Virus record (IMG/VR): IMGVR_UViG_3300009181_000334
Span: 1 to 24,053 of that record
DNA length: 24,053 bases
Strand: one strand, 5' to 3'
Origin: a virus
Part shown: positions 4,135 to 13,859 of the stretch, one piece after another
Layout: each line of letters starts with the position of its first letter
Position numbering within the stretch: the stretch's first letter is position 1
Program-made: the position numbers and the translations under genes
Notes under the pieces: model-generated
What the model was told of the DNA's origin: nothing
The model's database searches: none
What the model saw: only the letters and a program-made list of their open reading frames with translations

Positions 4135-5397
4135 TTACACACCAACAAACTCCCAAGGCGGCACATAGCCGACTTTATTTTTCGCCAGGTACGCACTCCA
4201 CCAATCCATCATCCGCCGCCGCTCCTGTAAAAATTCAGCTTTGTGAATGTAGGCCGCCCGCACAGCGTCCCGCTCTTGGTGGCTCATTTGCCGTTCGATA
4301 GCATCGCGGGAAAATAGCCCGCATTCATTCAGCGCCGAACAGGCCATAGTGCGAAAGCCGTGCCCGCACACCTCTTTGCGCGTGTCATACCCTAGCCGCC
4401 TAAGCGCGGCATTTACCGTGTTTTCGCTAACAGGCTGCACCTTCACAAAATCCCCCGGCAACACCAACTCACTAGGCCCAACGCTGGCCTCTAGCTCGCG
4501 CAGCAACTCAACAACAGGCAAGGAGAGCGGCACCAAATGAGCCGTGCGCATCTTCGCCCCTCGCGCCGAATACTTAACCCCAGCCAGCGGTGCCCGTTCC
4601 GGCGGAATCGTCCAGGTGCGGGCATCTAAGTCAAATTCTGCACGGCGGGCAAAGCGCAGCTCACTCGAGCGCACAAACAAATGCAAACTCAACAACAGCG
4701 CAAACCGCGTAACACGGCGGCCACCGTAGCCGTCAATTTTGGCCAGCAGTTCCGGCAACCGTTCCAGCGGCAGGGCAGGCCGGTGCGTAGGTTGCGGGTT
4801 AGTAAAATTGCCCAATAAATCCTGCGCCGGGTTATAAGTAATCAACCCCTTCAATACTGCAGACCTAAACACCAACACCAACTGCTGCCGCATCCGCGCC
4901 GCAATATCCAAAAACCCCGCCGCCTCCACGGCATTCAATACGCCCAACAACTCACGGGCAGTAATCTCACCAATGGGCCGCTGGCCCAACACAGGGTACA
5001 AATGCCGCTCAAACCGCGCCACCACCCGCCGCTGGTGATCCGCCTGCCACTTCTTTTGCGTAGCCAACCACTCGCTAGCCAACACCGCAAACGCACTGGC
5101 GGCATCCACCCGCGCCACTGTAGGCTTATCCGGCCTAGGGTCCCGCCCAGCACGTAACGCCGCCAATAACTCATCCCGCATTACACGCGCAGCCGCCAAC
5201 CCAATCAACGGATACTCACCAAAAGAAACCATATTGCGCCGCCCATCCGGCCGCGTGTACCGGCACCGCCAAACCTTGGCACCAGTAACCCGCACCAACA
5301 ACACCAACCCGCCACCATCGGGCAGGCTGTAGTCTTTGTCTTTTGGCTTGGCCGCACTCAGCTTCACATCACGCAGCGGCAGGATAGTTTTTGGCAT
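4135..5397 (-). CDS. int: P4-type tyrosine integrase
   Basis: The 420-residue protein is a site-specific recombinase that integrates and excises the phage genome. Residues 1-90 form the DUF4102-like arm-binding domain (LPDGGGLVLLVRVTGAKVWR, then SFGEYPLIGLAAAR). Residues about 100-190 are the SAM-like core-binding domain. The catalytic domain shows R243 (in RSSEL), H346 and R349 (HGFR), H373 and the nucleophile Y383. Length and residue order fit an intact P4-like integrase. The ATG has AAGGAG 11 bases upstream. The last 14 codons lie in a 44-bp direct repeat. Strand base skew resembles the left arm rather than the late genes, suggesting that it travels with the early region. Confidence 0.93.
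   Translation of the reverse strand: MPKTILPLRDVKLSAAKPKDKDYSLPDGGGLVLLVRVTGAKVWRCRYTRPDGRRNMVSFGEYPLIGLAAARVMRDELLAALRAGRDPRPDKPTVARVDAASAFAVLASEWLATQKKWQADHQRRVVARFERHLYPVLGQRPIGEITARELLGVLNAVEAAGFLDIAARMRQQLVLVFRSAVLKGLITYNPAQDLLGNFTNPQPTHRPALPLERLPELLAKIDGYGGRRVTRFALLLSLHLFVRSSELRFARRAEFDLDARTWTIPPERAPLAGVKYSARGAKMRTAHLVPLSLPVVELLRELEASVGPSELVLPGDFVKVQPVSENTVNAALRRLGYDTRKEVCGHGFRTMACSALNECGLFSRDAIERQMSHQERDAVRAAYIHKAEFLQERRRMMDWWSAYLAKNKVGYVPPWEFVGV
4137..4180. repeat. 44-bp direct repeat, copy 2: 3' end of the intact integrase gene
   Basis: This copy forms residues 407-420 of the integrase, ending GGT GTG and then TAA. It is a direct repeat of 3890-3933 with one mismatch; copy start points are 247 bp apart. 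Duplication of int-terminal codons is what a recombination site overlapping the int 3' end would produce. Confidence 0.85.
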
Positions 5398-5728: not shown

Positions 5729-6427
5729 CTAGCGTTCGGTGATTAGGAAATAGATGGTGCGTTCGTCTACGCGGCCGCCGGTGGTGGTGGCGCGGCAGGT
5801 TATGTGGGCGGGGGTTTGTAGGGTGCCGCCGGAGATTGTTAATACCACCTCGGTGGTGCTGGTGTAGGTTTGGGTGGCGGTTAGGCCGCCGGTGGCGGCT
5901 ACGTCCACGGCTTCTATGGTGTCGCCGTCTGCTAGCCATGCCGACCAATCCCACGTGTAATCCAGCACGGCCGCGGGGCTTTTGAATGCAGCTACTCGGC
6001 CGGCGCCGTCGCGGAAGAGATCGCCGGATTCGGGTAGGCCGTTGTTTTTGGCGCTGCTGATACTGAACACGCGGGCGGCGGCGCTGACGTAATCTGGCTC
6101 GGCTTCGCTGGCGGTGGTTATGTTGGCGGAATCGGTTACGGTGCCAACGGTGAAGCTGCGAGCTAGCGTTGCGCCGGCGGTGGCGCTGGATAGGCCGAAA
6201 ACCTCGATTTTATTGCCTAGGCTAACGCTGCCGGCCTCGCTTTGCATGCCGCCGTAGGTGGTGCCGCCGTCGGTGGAAACGCGATAGTGCACACCGGTGG
6301 CCAGCGTGCCAACGGCTAATGGGTCTTCTTCGGTGTCGCCGGTTAGGGTGAAGGCGCCTAGGCTTACGTAGGTTGCGGCGGCGGCGCTTGTGGCGTCGGC
6401 TAGGGTGAACTGGTTAATGTCGGCCAT
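5729..6427 (-). CDS. phage fibre-tail adaptor-like protein
   Basis: The 232-residue protein has a beta-rich, Ala/Thr/Gly-rich N-terminal half (about 1-120) and a C-terminal domain (about 130-232) with LDYTWDWSAWLADGDTIEAV, then TCRATTTGGRVDERTIYFLI. The latter is the signature of the phage fibre-tail adaptor domain that joins tail tip to side fibre. It is the last gene of the late operon, after the hub and the lectin-bearing tail protein, which fits a role at the tail tip or fibre. The bidirectional terminator follows about 190 bases downstream. The N-terminal half is not recognised. Adaptor function is inferred from the C-terminal motif. Confidence 0.65.
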   Translation of the reverse strand: MADINQFTLADATSAAAATYVSLGAFTLTGDTEEDPLAVGTLATGVHYRVSTDGGTTYGGMQSEAGSVSLGNKIEVFGLSSATAGATLARSFTVGTVTDSANITTASEAEPDYVSAAARVFSISSAKNNGLPESGDLFRDGAGRVAAFKSPAAVLDYTWDWSAWLADGDTIEAVDVAATGGLTATQTYTSTTEVVLTISGGTLQTPAHITCRATTTGGRVDERTIYFLITER

Positions 6428-6473: not shown

Positions 6474-6498
6474 ATAAAAAGCCCGCGCATGGCGGGCT
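6474..6498 (-). terminator. intrinsic terminator overlapping the stop of the LamG tail gene
   Basis: On the - strand, AGCCCGC pairs with GCGGGCT around a five-base loop (6480-6486 with 6492-6498), followed by a U-rich tract. The stem includes the stop codon of the gene at 6497. The next gene starts 47 bases further on, so that gene is expressed either by readthrough or from a very short promoter interval. Confidence 0.75.
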
Positions 6499-7540
6499 AG
6501 GATGGTATTAGGGAGCTGGTTGGCGGGGTGAAATTCGCCTTATATTCTGGAACGCAATAGCCGTTCACAAAAATTAAGTCGTCGATATAACCGGAAAAAG
6601 AATTAAGCGCGTAATCCTCGTAAGTATTGACAACGCTGAAAGGCCTATTGCCTGCACCGGTTGCAGTACCTACAGCTTGGGAAGCTACAACGCCATCCAA
6701 CCCTAAATAGAGCGAAATTCCGTCTTCGCAAAATGTTATGAAGTGCCACGAGTCATAAGGGACATTAACGCCTCTGACCCCGTATCTTCCAAAGTTAGCG
6801 CAGCCCAGCTGCGCATACCCTCCTGATCGTTCTATAGACCAATAAGAGCTGCCGTCACCCCTATTCAGCAAATGTTCATAGGTATTGCCGCTGGTGGGAA
6901 TATATACCCAAAAACATAATGTGCAAGAAGTTCGCATCTCGAAATTAGATGATGATGAATAGTCTAGCTTCGCCCTAGAACCCCCTGAACCACCATCGGC
7001 TTTTAAAGAAGAAACCCCCATCGCCTGCTGTGCGGTGCTTGTGTAAGCGTGTGCAACCGTGGCCGGCACGTTGGCTAGGGGGCTACTATCTATAATGGAC
7101 GTTCCGCCATTAGACCCGTCAAACCGCAACGCCAGGACAACATACTGCCACCAAGATGGCACCAATTGAGCAGAGCCAGACGACAATAAATCGAAGCTGC
7201 ACTTCACCACATCGTCGGTTATAAAATCTTCCGCATAGCCGCTGATATAAAACGCGGACTGGATCCGCTCGCCAGTTTCAAACAGCACATAAACACCGTC
7301 AACAAGGCGCGTATCGTCCAGAATCAGGGATTTAATTACGGCGCTTTTGGCTATGCCTTCCACGCTTATATCAATAGAACGCGTGCTGCTTTGGCTCAGT
7401 AATTCACGAAAACCCGCGCCATCGTCGGCGGTTATGTCGATGGGGTCGCCGTTGTATTTGATTTTTTTGCCGGTGATACCACTGCAAATCACCGCATCGT
7501 CCAGCATCACTTTTACGTTTAAACCCAGCTGTGCGGCCAC
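6497..7540 (-). CDS. tail-tube paralogue fused to a LamG-like lectin domain
   Basis: Residues 1-128 are clearly related to the main tail tube protein encoded at 13470-13859: both share DAVICSGI or SAVICSGI, then KKIKYNGD, I[DE]IT, DD-GFR, and ILNDTR or ILDDTR in the same order. Residues about 135-340 form a second module with RFDGSNGGTSIIDSS, CTLCFWVYIP, WHFITFCEDGISLYL and YIDDLIFVNG, the pattern of a LamG/concanavalin A-like jelly roll that binds glycans. The likely role is a terminal or decorating tail-tube subunit that displays a lectin. The start is GTG with AAGGTG upstream. The LamG part is AT-richer than its neighbours, suggesting an acquired module. Confidence 0.8.
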   Translation of the reverse strand: MAAQLGLNVKVMLDDAVICSGITGKKIKYNGDPIDITADDGAGFRELLSQSSTRSIDISVEGIAKSAVIKSLILDDTRLVDGVYVLFETGERIQSAFYISGYAEDFITDDVVKCSFDLLSSGSAQLVPSWWQYVVLALRFDGSNGGTSIIDSSPLANVPATVAHAYTSTAQQAMGVSSLKADGGSGGSRAKLDYSSSSNFEMRTSCTLCFWVYIPTSGNTYEHLLNRGDGSSYWSIERSGGYAQLGCANFGRYGVRGVNVPYDSWHFITFCEDGISLYLGLDGVVASQAVGTATGAGNRPFSVVNTYEDYALNSFSGYIDDLIFVNGYCVPEYKANFTPPTSSLIPS

Positions 7541-7567: not shown

Positions 7568-9820
7568 TCAGCCAACTTGCGGGCCTAAAATGTCGTCGGT
7601 GCCGGTGATTGTGCACAAGCTCACGCCGGTAATAGCGTTACCCGCGGCGCCTGCAGTGCCGGCGCCAGCATCAACGCCCGCCTCACCCGGGTCACCACCC
7701 GCGCCACCATCGGTGCCGCCGGTGCCGTTCATTTTGCCGCCGTTGCCGCCGTAGGTTAGGTGGCCGTCGCCGTGGCCGGCTTCGCCGTTGGTGCCGCCGG
7801 AGCCGCTTAGGCCAATGACCGAACCCGCACCGCCACCACCCCAGCTGCGCCCGCCGCCATAAGGCGCAACGCCACGGCTGCCACCGCCACCGCCCCCCCA
7901 AATAATGGGGTCCACCAGCGTAACGGCTGAATCCGTGAAAAACGCGGGGCCGCCGTCGCCGGCTTCGGCATTGCCGCCCCAGCCGGTGCTATTCCACTCC
8001 CAGCCGCCTTTGCCGCCTGCGCCCTGAATGCGCCCGCCGGCAAATTCAATAGTGACATCCACGCCTGCCGCCCAGCCGGTATTGGTTGCCGCATATTGCG
8101 ACGGCGCCAAGGAGCCAACAATTACGCCGGCGCCAATAACAAAAAGCACGGTATCGCCGGATTCTGCTTCAGTGTAAATGGCGTCGTGCAGGGTTTTTAG
8201 GTCGATGCTGTAGGCGGTTACGTCGATGTACACCACGCGGTCACCGCCACTTAATAACGGTAAATTCACCTGCTCGGCCTGCACTACGTAATCCGCAATG
8301 CGCGGCTCCACGCGGGTGACTAGGTAAGGCGCTGGTGCGGCGGTGGCGCCTTGGGCGTCTTCAAAAATGCGGCTTTGGATGGTGACAATGCGGCCCAGTG
8401 CCGGGGTTATGCTTTTTGGCAGCGCGAAGGAAATAGTGCGCGGGGCTTTGCCGTAGCGGCCCACTAGCAGCGCGGTTAAGGCCTCGGCGGCTGGGCGGTT
8501 GTCTACGGTTATCCAGCGGCTGTAAATTTTGCGGATGGCCGGCGGCGCGTCTTCCAGTGCCACTTGGGCATTCGTGTAAAACGTGTTCAAAATCGCTTGG
8601 TAATTTTCGTCTTCGTCGATTTTTTTAAGGGGGTTTTTTTGGCCGTAATAAAACAAAACTTGGTCGGTGCGGGCGTCTTGTTCTAGGCTGCCGGTTATGG
8701 TGCCTTTTAAAAAAACGTCGTCATTCCATGCGGTTAAGGGCGGCTGGTTGCGCAGTACCTGCAGGGCAATTTTTTTGGCTGCCGTGTCCGTCCACATCAC
8801 CAAGCCCACTTGGTTAATTAACTCATCAATCAGTTTTTTAACGCTGGTGGGCTTCATTATTTCGGCGCTGTATAGCCGGCCATTATTGGCCAGTGTTTCG
8901 GCGCTCCATGCGGCATAGTCCAAGTATTCGGCTGGGGTGTTGGTGTAGTCGCTTAACAGGGTGTTAATAATTTCCGATGGGTCTAGCGAGTCGAACGCCA
9001 GCGCAATCTGGAAGGTGCTGCCGGCCTCGTGGCTTACGGCTTTGCTGCCGCGAAGGGCTCGGGCTGTTAGGGTTACGGCGTCGCCGCTACGGGTAAAGCT
9101 CACCACCTCGTCTGCAATGCTGGCCAGCCCGCCCGCTGGGTAGCTGTCGTCGCCTACGCCGGTTGGGGTTAGGGTTAGGCTGGTGGCGCTGTCGGTTATT
9201 GCCGCGTCTAACAGCCCGGCACTCAACACCGGCGCCTGTGCCTTGTCGCCGTCCAAAAAACTAATGGCGTCTTTAGCTGTGATGGCAAAATTGCCTTTAT
9301 TGTCGGGTCCGCTGGTGCTGTCCACCACGTAGTAACGGCGGTCCATATCGTCTATTGACTGGCCAACATACCCACGCACGGCGCGGCATTCTAGGCCTTT
9401 TAGGTTTGGCCAGCGGGCGGCGAACTTGGGCCAAAAGCTGCCTTGGGTGTAGGGGTTAAAACCACGGTCGGCCAAATAGGGGTCAAACCCCACATCGTTA
9501 TGCGGGTGATTGGAAAAACTGGCCGATAGGCCCTCACGCACGCCCAAACTTTCGCCGGGGTTGAGTTTTTGCGGGCGAATGGCGAGGCCTTCCAAGCTGG
9601 GGATAACGTCCACATCCAGCGGCAAATCGGAACTTGGCGCGGCCCAGCGCACTAGCTGCTCGCCGGGTAAAAAATTGGCGGGGTCTTGGCAGGTGGCGGG
9701 GCTTTGGTAACACTTAAAATCCCCCGTGGTGCCCAGCTCGGCGGCGCAGGGGCTGCTGCCGTAGGTGCGCGTGCAGGGTTTTAGCACCAGCTCAAAAAAT
9801 TCTAGGGCGGTGCCGGTCAC
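7568..9820 (-). CDS. tail hub / tip protein with glycine-rich adhesin C-terminus
   Basis: The 750-residue protein has an N-terminal four-cysteine segment (C16, C25, C37, C44), a long central region (about 50-530) resembling the baseplate hub of siphophages, and a C-terminal adhesin part. The latter starts with GDTVLFVIGAGVIVG and continues into a glycine-rich stretch at about 596-728, like polyglycine adhesins of phage tail tips. It probably forms the tail-tip hub and touches the host receptor. The start is GTG, overlapping the stop of the preceding gene (GTGA), with TGAGG eight bases upstream. The next gene downstream is the LamG fusion. Hub assignment comes from position, size and motifs. 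Confidence 0.7.
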   Translation of the reverse strand: MTGTALEFFELVLKPCTRTYGSSPCAAELGTTGDFKCYQSPATCQDPANFLPGEQLVRWAAPSSDLPLDVDVIPSLEGLAIRPQKLNPGESLGVREGLSASFSNHPHNDVGFDPYLADRGFNPYTQGSFWPKFAARWPNLKGLECRAVRGYVGQSIDDMDRRYYVVDSTSGPDNKGNFAITAKDAISFLDGDKAQAPVLSAGLLDAAITDSATSLTLTPTGVGDDSYPAGGLASIADEVVSFTRSGDAVTLTARALRGSKAVSHEAGSTFQIALAFDSLDPSEIINTLLSDYTNTPAEYLDYAAWSAETLANNGRLYSAEIMKPTSVKKLIDELINQVGLVMWTDTAAKKIALQVLRNQPPLTAWNDDVFLKGTITGSLEQDARTDQVLFYYGQKNPLKKIDEDENYQAILNTFYTNAQVALEDAPPAIRKIYSRWITVDNRPAAEALTALLVGRYGKAPRTISFALPKSITPALGRIVTIQSRIFEDAQGATAAPAPYLVTRVEPRIADYVVQAEQVNLPLLSGGDRVVYIDVTAYSIDLKTLHDAIYTEAESGDTVLFVIGAGVIVGSLAPSQYAATNTGWAAGVDVTIEFAGGRIQGAGGKGGWEWNSTGWGGNAEAGDGGPAFFTDSAVTLVDPIIWGGGGGGSRGVAPYGGGRSWGGGGAGSVIGLSGSGGTNGEAGHGDGHLTYGGNGGKMNGTGGTDGGAGGDPGEAGVDAGAGTAGAAGNAITGVSLCTITGTDDILGPQVG

Positions 9821-10641
9821 GCAATGGCCTCAATATCAAAACTAAAGCCCATCATGCCGTTGGGCTGTTGGTTGTCTGGGTGGATGGTGCCGTGCGTCCA
9901 GCCGTAGAGCGTGTCCGCTGGGTGGCTTAGCGGCCGCCATGCGAAAAAATACGGGCCCTGCGCGGTGCCATCGTCTGGCGCGGTGTTATTGGCGTGGGCG
10001 GCGAAGGGGGCCACGTAGGTGTACACAAAATCGGCGGTTACATTGGTTTGGCTAACGCTGGCTTTACGCCACTTGGCGGTATTAATGCGCCCCAGGTACT
10101 GGCCGCTTTCGCTGGTTTGCGTAGTGCCTTCGGCGTATTGCGCCAGCGCGGCTGGCTTGTGGCCCACGTAAATGCTGCGCTGCAATTGCAGCAATTTGCC
10201 CAGTTTTATGTGCGCCAGAATTGGCCGAATGCCGTCATCGGGCTGTACAAAGTTCACGCGGAATAGGTGCGCATTAGTGGCGGTAAAATGCTGAATAATG
10301 GCGGAATCGTCGCCGATAACATGCTGCGGCACTATCTCATCCCATGTTGCGCCGGCGTCGTCGGAGCTTTCCACCTGCAGCTCTATGCCTAGGCTGCCGA
10401 GGTTGTGGCGGGCAATGCCGATGTAATCAACCTGTACGCCGTCTGGGTTTTCCAGCAACAGGTAACTGGCGTCGCTGTCGGGCTCCCAGAGGGCGGCGGT
10501 GTCTGGTGACCACAGGTTAATCACCGGCCGCGCGCTGGTGGAGCTCTCGGCGGTGATATTGGCGGTGGTTAATACGCTATGCCAGCCAATTACGGGGTTA
10601 TTGGAGCCTAGGGGCGCGGTTTCGGGTTCGAAGTAGCTCAT
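9817..10641 (-). CDS. tail-tip protein, possibly with a galactose-binding-like fold
   Basis: The 274-residue protein starts at an ATGA overlap with the tape measure stop and ends overlapping the hub start, so it belongs to the tail-tip block. Residues about 40-150 (NLWSPDTAALWEPDSD, VDYIGIARHNLGS, SSDDAGATWDEI, HLFRVNF) resemble the jelly-roll pattern of discoidin/galactose-binding-like domains: a strand with VDYIGIA, then a W, then a terminal RV strand. Position directly after the tape measure matches the distal tail protein slot of siphophages. Sequence alone does not settle whether it is Dit-like or an extra carbohydrate-binding tip component. Confidence 0.6.
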   Translation of the reverse strand: MSYFEPETAPLGSNNPVIGWHSVLTTANITAESSTSARPVINLWSPDTAALWEPDSDASYLLLENPDGVQVDYIGIARHNLGSLGIELQVESSDDAGATWDEIVPQHVIGDDSAIIQHFTATNAHLFRVNFVQPDDGIRPILAHIKLGKLLQLQRSIYVGHKPAALAQYAEGTTQTSESGQYLGRINTAKWRKASVSQTNVTADFVYTYVAPFAAHANNTAPDDGTAQGPYFFAWRPLSHPADTLYGWTHGTIHPDNQQPNGMMGFSFDIEAIA

Positions 10642-13422: not shown

Positions 13423-13443
13423 AAAAAAGCCGCCTAAGCGGCT
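13423..13443 (-). terminator. intrinsic terminator after the tail tube gene
   Basis: On the - strand, AGCCGC / GCGGCT closes a four-base loop and runs into six U. It follows the tail tube stop at 13470 and precedes the chaperone start at 13400 by 23 bases. It probably attenuates transcription after the highly expressed tube gene. Confidence 0.8.
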
Positions 13444-13469: not shown

Positions 13470-13859
13470 TTAATCCGGCGTGAAGGTGTATTCGCCAGAG
13501 GTTTGCAGCTCGGCGCTAAACTTAACCGCGTCGTCGTGCTGGTAGTCTTCGTCGAAGCTGGCCAGATAAAAATTGCCGGTGATTACGTCGCCATTGGAGA
13601 ACACCAGCGAGACATCGGTAAGCATGCGCGTGTCGTTCAAAATTAAATTGCGCAACACCGTATCTTTGGCCACGCCCTCAATGGAAACATCAATGGACTT
13701 AGTGCCAGAGGCACCCAAAAACGTGCGAAAGCCGTTGTCGTCGTCGCTGGTAATTTCGATGGCGTCGCCGTTGTATTTAATTTTTTTGCTGGCGATACCG
13801 GAACAAATTACCGCCGATGCTTTTTTGACTTGAAACAATAAACCTTTTTCTGCTGCCAT
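13470..13859 (-). CDS. major tail tube protein, TP901-1 type
   Basis: The 129-residue protein polymerises into the tail tube. It has the short tube-protein pattern: SAVICSGIASKKIKYNGDAI, then a DNGFRTFL turn, KSIDVSIEGVAKDT, VSLVFSNGDVITGNFYLAS and a terminal FSAELQTSGEYTFTP. Length is normal for the TP901-1 major tail family. It lies between the tail terminator gene and the gpG-like chaperone, the canonical position. A diverged copy of the whole protein forms the N-terminal part of the LamG-bearing protein at 6497-7540. A terminator follows its stop, consistent with a separate high level of mRNA. Confidence 0.87.
   Translation of the reverse strand: MAAEKGLLFQVKKASAVICSGIASKKIKYNGDAIEITSDDDNGFRTFLGASGTKSIDVSIEGVAKDTVLRNLILNDTRMLTDVSLVFSNGDVITGNFYLASFDEDYQHDDAVKFSAELQTSGEYTFTPD

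Follow-up and report, generated by a model that had tools for sequence, protein, structure and literature searches.

A second tail-tube gene extended by a LamG-like domain lies behind the hub gene of a phage tail operon and is a candidate tip adhesin

Why would a phage carry a second tail-tube gene behind its hub gene, and what would a tube subunit do with an added LamG-like domain? This question is raised by the 24,053 nucleotide stretch analysed here (IMG/VR record IMGVR_UViG_3300009181_000334, positions 1 to 24,053; hereafter the window). The second tube gene, T2, occupies 6497..7540 on the minus strand. Its ORF starts with GTG, runs intact for 347 aa and is preceded by a Shine-Dalgarno-like AAGGTG. 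It is separate from the gene of the main tail-tube protein, T1 (129 aa, 13470..13859, minus strand), and lies 5.9 kb downstream of it in the operon. The initial annotation had read T2 as a diverged tube copy extended by a jelly roll, and had proposed that it decorates a mixed tube or caps the tube tip.

The N-terminal tube domain of T2 (residues 1-128, 7157..7540, minus strand) was compared with T1 by alignment, domain search and structure prediction. The two align over 128 gap-free columns with 49% identity and 68% positives (E 4e-40). The T2 domain matched PF06199 Phage_tail_2 with 29.6 bits, above the curated Pfam cut-off of 23.8 bits, and T1 matched with 56.1 bits; these were the only two PF06199 matches in the whole record. 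The NCBIfam equivalog for the TP901-1 major tail protein (TIGR02126, cut-off 37) scored both proteins below its cut-off, T2 at 12.9 and T1 at 27.2 bits. AlphaFold2 modelled the tube half with pLDDT mostly about 90 as strand, strand, a long loop (about residues 32-53), strand, helix and further strands, which is the tail-tube fold with its long loop and helix. Foldseek ranked the RcGTA tail tube chains 6toa and 6tba as closest in the PDB, followed by other tail tubes, and a sequence-profile search agreed by matching the RcGTA tube Rcc01691 (E 7.8e-16). Assignment as a Distal tail protein (Dit) was rejected, as the best Pfam, PDB-sequence and Foldseek matches were all tube proteins and SPP1 Dit (2x8k) ranked far lower. 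The proposal that the first 128 residues are a diverged tube copy was thus borne out in both sequence and predicted fold.

The C-terminal part of T2 (residues 129-347, 6500..7156, minus strand) was assigned as a LamG/ConA-like jelly roll. PF13385 Laminin_G_3 matched residues 196-323 with 33.2 bits against a curated cut-off of 27.6, and AlphaFold2 modelled this half alone as a jelly roll with mean pLDDT 84.1 and pTM 0.84. The LamG identification made at first reading therefore held under both tests, and only its length needed correction, from 210 to 219 residues. Foldseek returned generic jelly-roll domains, many from carbohydrate-binding proteins; these matches to a model speak to the fold only and name no ligand. 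Folds of the LamG/ConA type bind glycans or proteins, and the fold alone does not imply glycan binding. The tube and LamG assignments are both statistically secure and beyond chance. Each half was backed by its own alignment, as combined alignments put LamG rows in the wrong place, and the full-length model carries no information on the relative orientation of the halves. Third-position GC (GC3) of the LamG part was 0.48, lower than in most genes tested and compared with 0.57-0.73 in the structural genes tested outside T2, suggesting that the LamG part was acquired separately.

T1 lies in the usual slot of a main tube gene: the connector, gp10-like and tail terminator genes precede it, and the tail chaperones and tape measure follow. 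The hub, or tail fibre-adhesion protein (750 aa, 7568..9820, minus strand), matched phrog_11439 tail fiber protein (E 4.5e-115) in a gene order shared with relatives and is directly upstream of T2, with 27 nt between them. The hub of the window has a Gly-rich C-terminal region in common with Idiomarinaceae phage 1N2-2 and the hubs of T2-bearing relatives. Next to the hub gene, a 274-aa tip protein (9817..10641, minus strand) matched phrog_11633 (unknown function) and is a candidate distal-tail protein by gene order; the hub and distal-tail names are both based on gene order and PHROG labels. Terminator-like hairpins were found at the T2 stop codon, followed by a T-run (6480..6498, minus strand; AGCCCGCCATGCGCGGGCT TTTTATTGTC), and just after T1, where one may act as an attenuator (13428..13443, minus strand; AGCCGCTTAGGCGGCT TTTTTACGCA); both are pattern matches only, of a kind expected 16.5 times by chance in the region scanned. 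Past the T2 hairpin, 5729-6427 encodes a 232-aa protein whose C-terminal part is a Gp77 (fibre-tail adaptor) domain, PF23148. A P4-type tyrosine integrase encoded at 4135-5397, 47% identical to that of phage P4, makes a temperate lifestyle probable. A defence-system library gave no match.

Relatives of the complete fusion were sought in several collections. Neither 50,697 phage records nor a plasmid collection yielded a full-length relative of the tube-LamG fusion. Rhizobium phage matches that spanned both halves were rejected as fusions, since the 911-aa protein has LamG and CBM_5_12 matches and no PF06199. None of 80 viral loci with LamG relatives had a tube domain, indicating that the LamG module is not usually paired with one. 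Among 754 Gamma- and Alphaproteobacteria genomes, two PF06199 copies on one contig occurred only in the known MAG (G001), and no other above-cut-off PF06199 match lay in an open frame as long as the 347 aa of T2; a 338-aa frame was detected in a Devosia genome. Single-protein scans of viral contigs returned only IMGVR_UViG_3300027754_004713, a fragment whose T1 and hub are 99-100% identical to those of the window, which makes it a second sighting of the same phage. An open-access literature search, which is weak evidence, found no report of tube-LamG fusions or of such a second tube gene.

The relatives surfaced through hub alignments. The hub-based survey covered 222 hub loci and 152 distinct hubs. 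Sequence past the hub reached 400 nt or more for 110 of these, and the counts include the window and its sub-locus L002. A tube domain directly followed the hub in seven distinct contigs: the window, L015, L021, L099, L103 (with L104), L145 and L163. Five of the six besides the window are viral and one is a Gammaproteobacteria MAG (L163). The survey ranks matches by similarity to a few hubs, so the ratio of 7 in about 109 should not be read as a population frequency. Two PF06199 copies above cut-off were detected in each T2-bearing record by an independent Pfam genome search. The hub stop overlaps or abuts the second-tube start in 5/7, and the gap is 4 nt in L103. The C-termini, compared where readable (the T2 genes of L021, L145 and L163 run off the contig end), differed from phage to phage. 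RCC1 repeats forming a propeller were present in L015 and the tail-fibre module phrog_12940 in L099, and L163 had repeats resembling a minor tail protein of Stenotrophomonas phage Sonora; L103 gave only a weak phrog_10080 match and appears SPRY-like by eye. Finding the same arrangement with other C-terminal domains strengthened the idea of a recognition device. Six named phages of the same hub family have one PF06199 protein each and manage without T2, which makes T2 accessory at most.

Other arrangements were seen in the same survey. Tandem tube genes filled the T1 slot in L023 (4261-5355), L027 (5758-6843), L078 (1120-2239), L080 (5725-6808) and L079 (1-935), the first copy carrying a C-terminal Ig-like domain (weak Pfam Ig matches) and the second plain; in these phages duplication, in place of frameshifting, may yield a mixed tube. 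Two plain tube genes stood in tandem in the T1 slot of L026 (lambda-type TTP family), L130, L198 and L055. One Roseovarius chromosome (OX638333.1) held two hub loci about 47 kb apart with equal match scores (L169 and L170).

The origin of the second tubes was assessed with a tree of 85 tube domains from all T2-bearing contigs but L163 and from other loci. T1 and T2 of the window were sisters (100/99), which together with their gap-free alignment upheld the claim of a tube-gene duplication. The L145 T2 grouped with the clade of its own T1 (99/84), the T2s of L021, L099 and L103 were placed near their own T1s (94/96), and the L015 T2 formed a long branch with no firm placement. A single origin of all six T2s in the tree was rejected by the AU test (p-AU 2.7e-6), as were two smaller T2 unions (3.6e-4 and 0.0096), and the starred branches of the tree force at least three changes. 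As the resolved T2s group with the tube gene of their own phage, the simplest reading of the tree is three or more separate duplications; old gene conversion between T1 and T2 is a possible alternative. Recent conversion is argued against by codon usage: of 63 residues shared by T1 and T2, 36 have identical codons where usage predicts 29, a level near saturation.

T2 was farther from the outgroups than T1 in every pair tested and is thus the faster copy. All T2s retain the R45 loop motif, the aromatic residue before R45, G6 and G62, and the long-loop residues G43, R45 and the preceding aromatic are mostly kept. The T2s also share losses at other sites that are common or nearly fixed in T1s (e.g. 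S120, G95 and D39); convergence at these sites is suggestive only, as it comes from seven T2 sequences of which four are apparently related. Net charge showed no clear difference between T2 and T1 tube domains (p 0.06).

Together, we think it reasonably probable that T2 is a virion adhesin made from a duplicated tube gene, with the tube-fold domain docked at or near the tail tip and LamG binding a host ligand. Stacking of tail-tube proteins relies on a long loop extending to the next ring, and in RcGTA this loop also docks onto the distal tail protein (PMC7296036). By this mechanism the N-terminal domain of T2 would insert into, or sit on, the stack of six-fold, tube-like rings, most probably at the tail tip or beside it, for example as a ring next to the distal-tail/hub complex. 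We infer that T2 is present in the virion at this position, possibly as a ring or partial ring by the hub with its C-terminal domain outside; this placement appears likeliest because the hub stop and T2 start overlap or abut in most T2-bearing contigs. The jelly roll would point outward and add an accessory step to receptor binding by attaching to a ligand on the host surface, probably a glycan, and the binding module would be swappable among relatives. The proposal that such a device is separate from the fibre and hub genes is supported by the Pfam domains of T2, the T1 alignment, the tree and the AlphaFold2 models. Whether one broad group of phages with GTA-like tubes has repeatedly duplicated the tube gene into the post-hub slot, each copy being a tip-docking adaptor with an interchangeable adhesin, we judge to be an evenly balanced proposition.

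Of the two placements offered by the initial annotation, the tip is favored and the mixed shaft is kept as a rival. Along the shaft, T2 could be a decorated minority subunit co-polymerised with T1 in the manner of SPP1 gp17.1*, and both SPP1, with a 3:1 ratio (PMC8718954), and lactococcal MTP-TpeX (PMC6669499) provide precedents. The grouping of resolved T2s with the T1 lineage of their own phage would fit such co-polymerisation, as do the retained long-loop motif and the tandem plain and Ig-like-domain tube genes of some relatives. However, T2 is coded after the hub, overlapping it in relatives, and not beside T1, and it diverges fast and at shared sites from the tube consensus. The post-hub position, the hub overlap and this faster shared-site divergence speak for a tip part linked to the hub more than for free mixing within the shaft, and we regard a mixed tube as rather doubtful.

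The same divergence bears on a fibre-type anchor, in which the tube domain may have lost ring formation and would be only an N-terminal peg fixing the adhesin to the hub. Coupling to the hub, swappable C-termini and the loss of several tube-consensus sites are compatible with this, but the tube fold and the loop residues G43, R45 and preceding aromatic are mostly kept, making a simple peg improbable. A role for T2 outside the virion, as a regulator, decoy or decaying duplicate, would agree with the small number of phages that carry it; we consider it very improbable, given intact ORFs with start signals within or ending the tail operon and recurrent fusion to adhesin-type domains from at least three origins.

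Decorated tail tubes are already known and the role of the decoration is still called speculative (PMC8718954). The T2 decoration has its own gene, a repeated origin from tube genes and swapped C-terminal modules, and being on its own gene makes its role testable by single-gene deletion with the tube left intact. Should T2 be a tip ring, receptor binding would gain a tube-fold anchor beside the known fibre, spike, hub and Dit anchors, and if the repeated-duplication reading is true, the tube fold itself serves these phages as a plug-in platform for receptor binding. A building block of the tube seems to have been given a second use, as a holder into which host-binding modules are plugged.

The nearest known systems are frameshift-made decorated tubes (SPP1 gp17.1* and lactococcal MTP-TpeX) and CBM-bearing distal tail proteins. 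Like T2, SPP1 gp17.1/gp17.1* provides a tube subunit with an outward C-terminal domain and a proposed contact with cell-wall carbohydrate; however, in SPP1 one gene and a ribosomal frameshift yield both forms, 3:1 in the shaft (PMC8718954), whereas T2 is a separate diverged gene after the hub and not a frameshift or read-through product of the tube gene. MTP-TpeX of lactococcal 936 phages likewise joins a tube protein to a carbohydrate-binding module and its host binding has been shown (PMC6669499), but it is a frameshift product of the main tube gene with a BppA-type CBM. Lambda gpV and T5 pb6 also carry a C-terminal domain on a tube fold (PMC5717097), in their case an Ig-like domain on a single main tube protein with no second gene. 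Dit proteins with extra domains (RcGTA, R4C and evolved Dit) resemble T2 in placing an added, partly saccharide-linked domain on a tube-like fold at the tip (PMC7296036, PMC10276861); the tube half of T2 differs in matching tube proteins by sequence and fold ranking, and its gene lies after the hub. The tail-ring paralogs of RcGTA, the nearest solved tube, are held to descend from one multiplied gene (PMC7296036), and while those share <19% identity and each forms a regular tail ring, T2 is accessory, shares 49% identity with T1 and has an adhesin domain fused to it.
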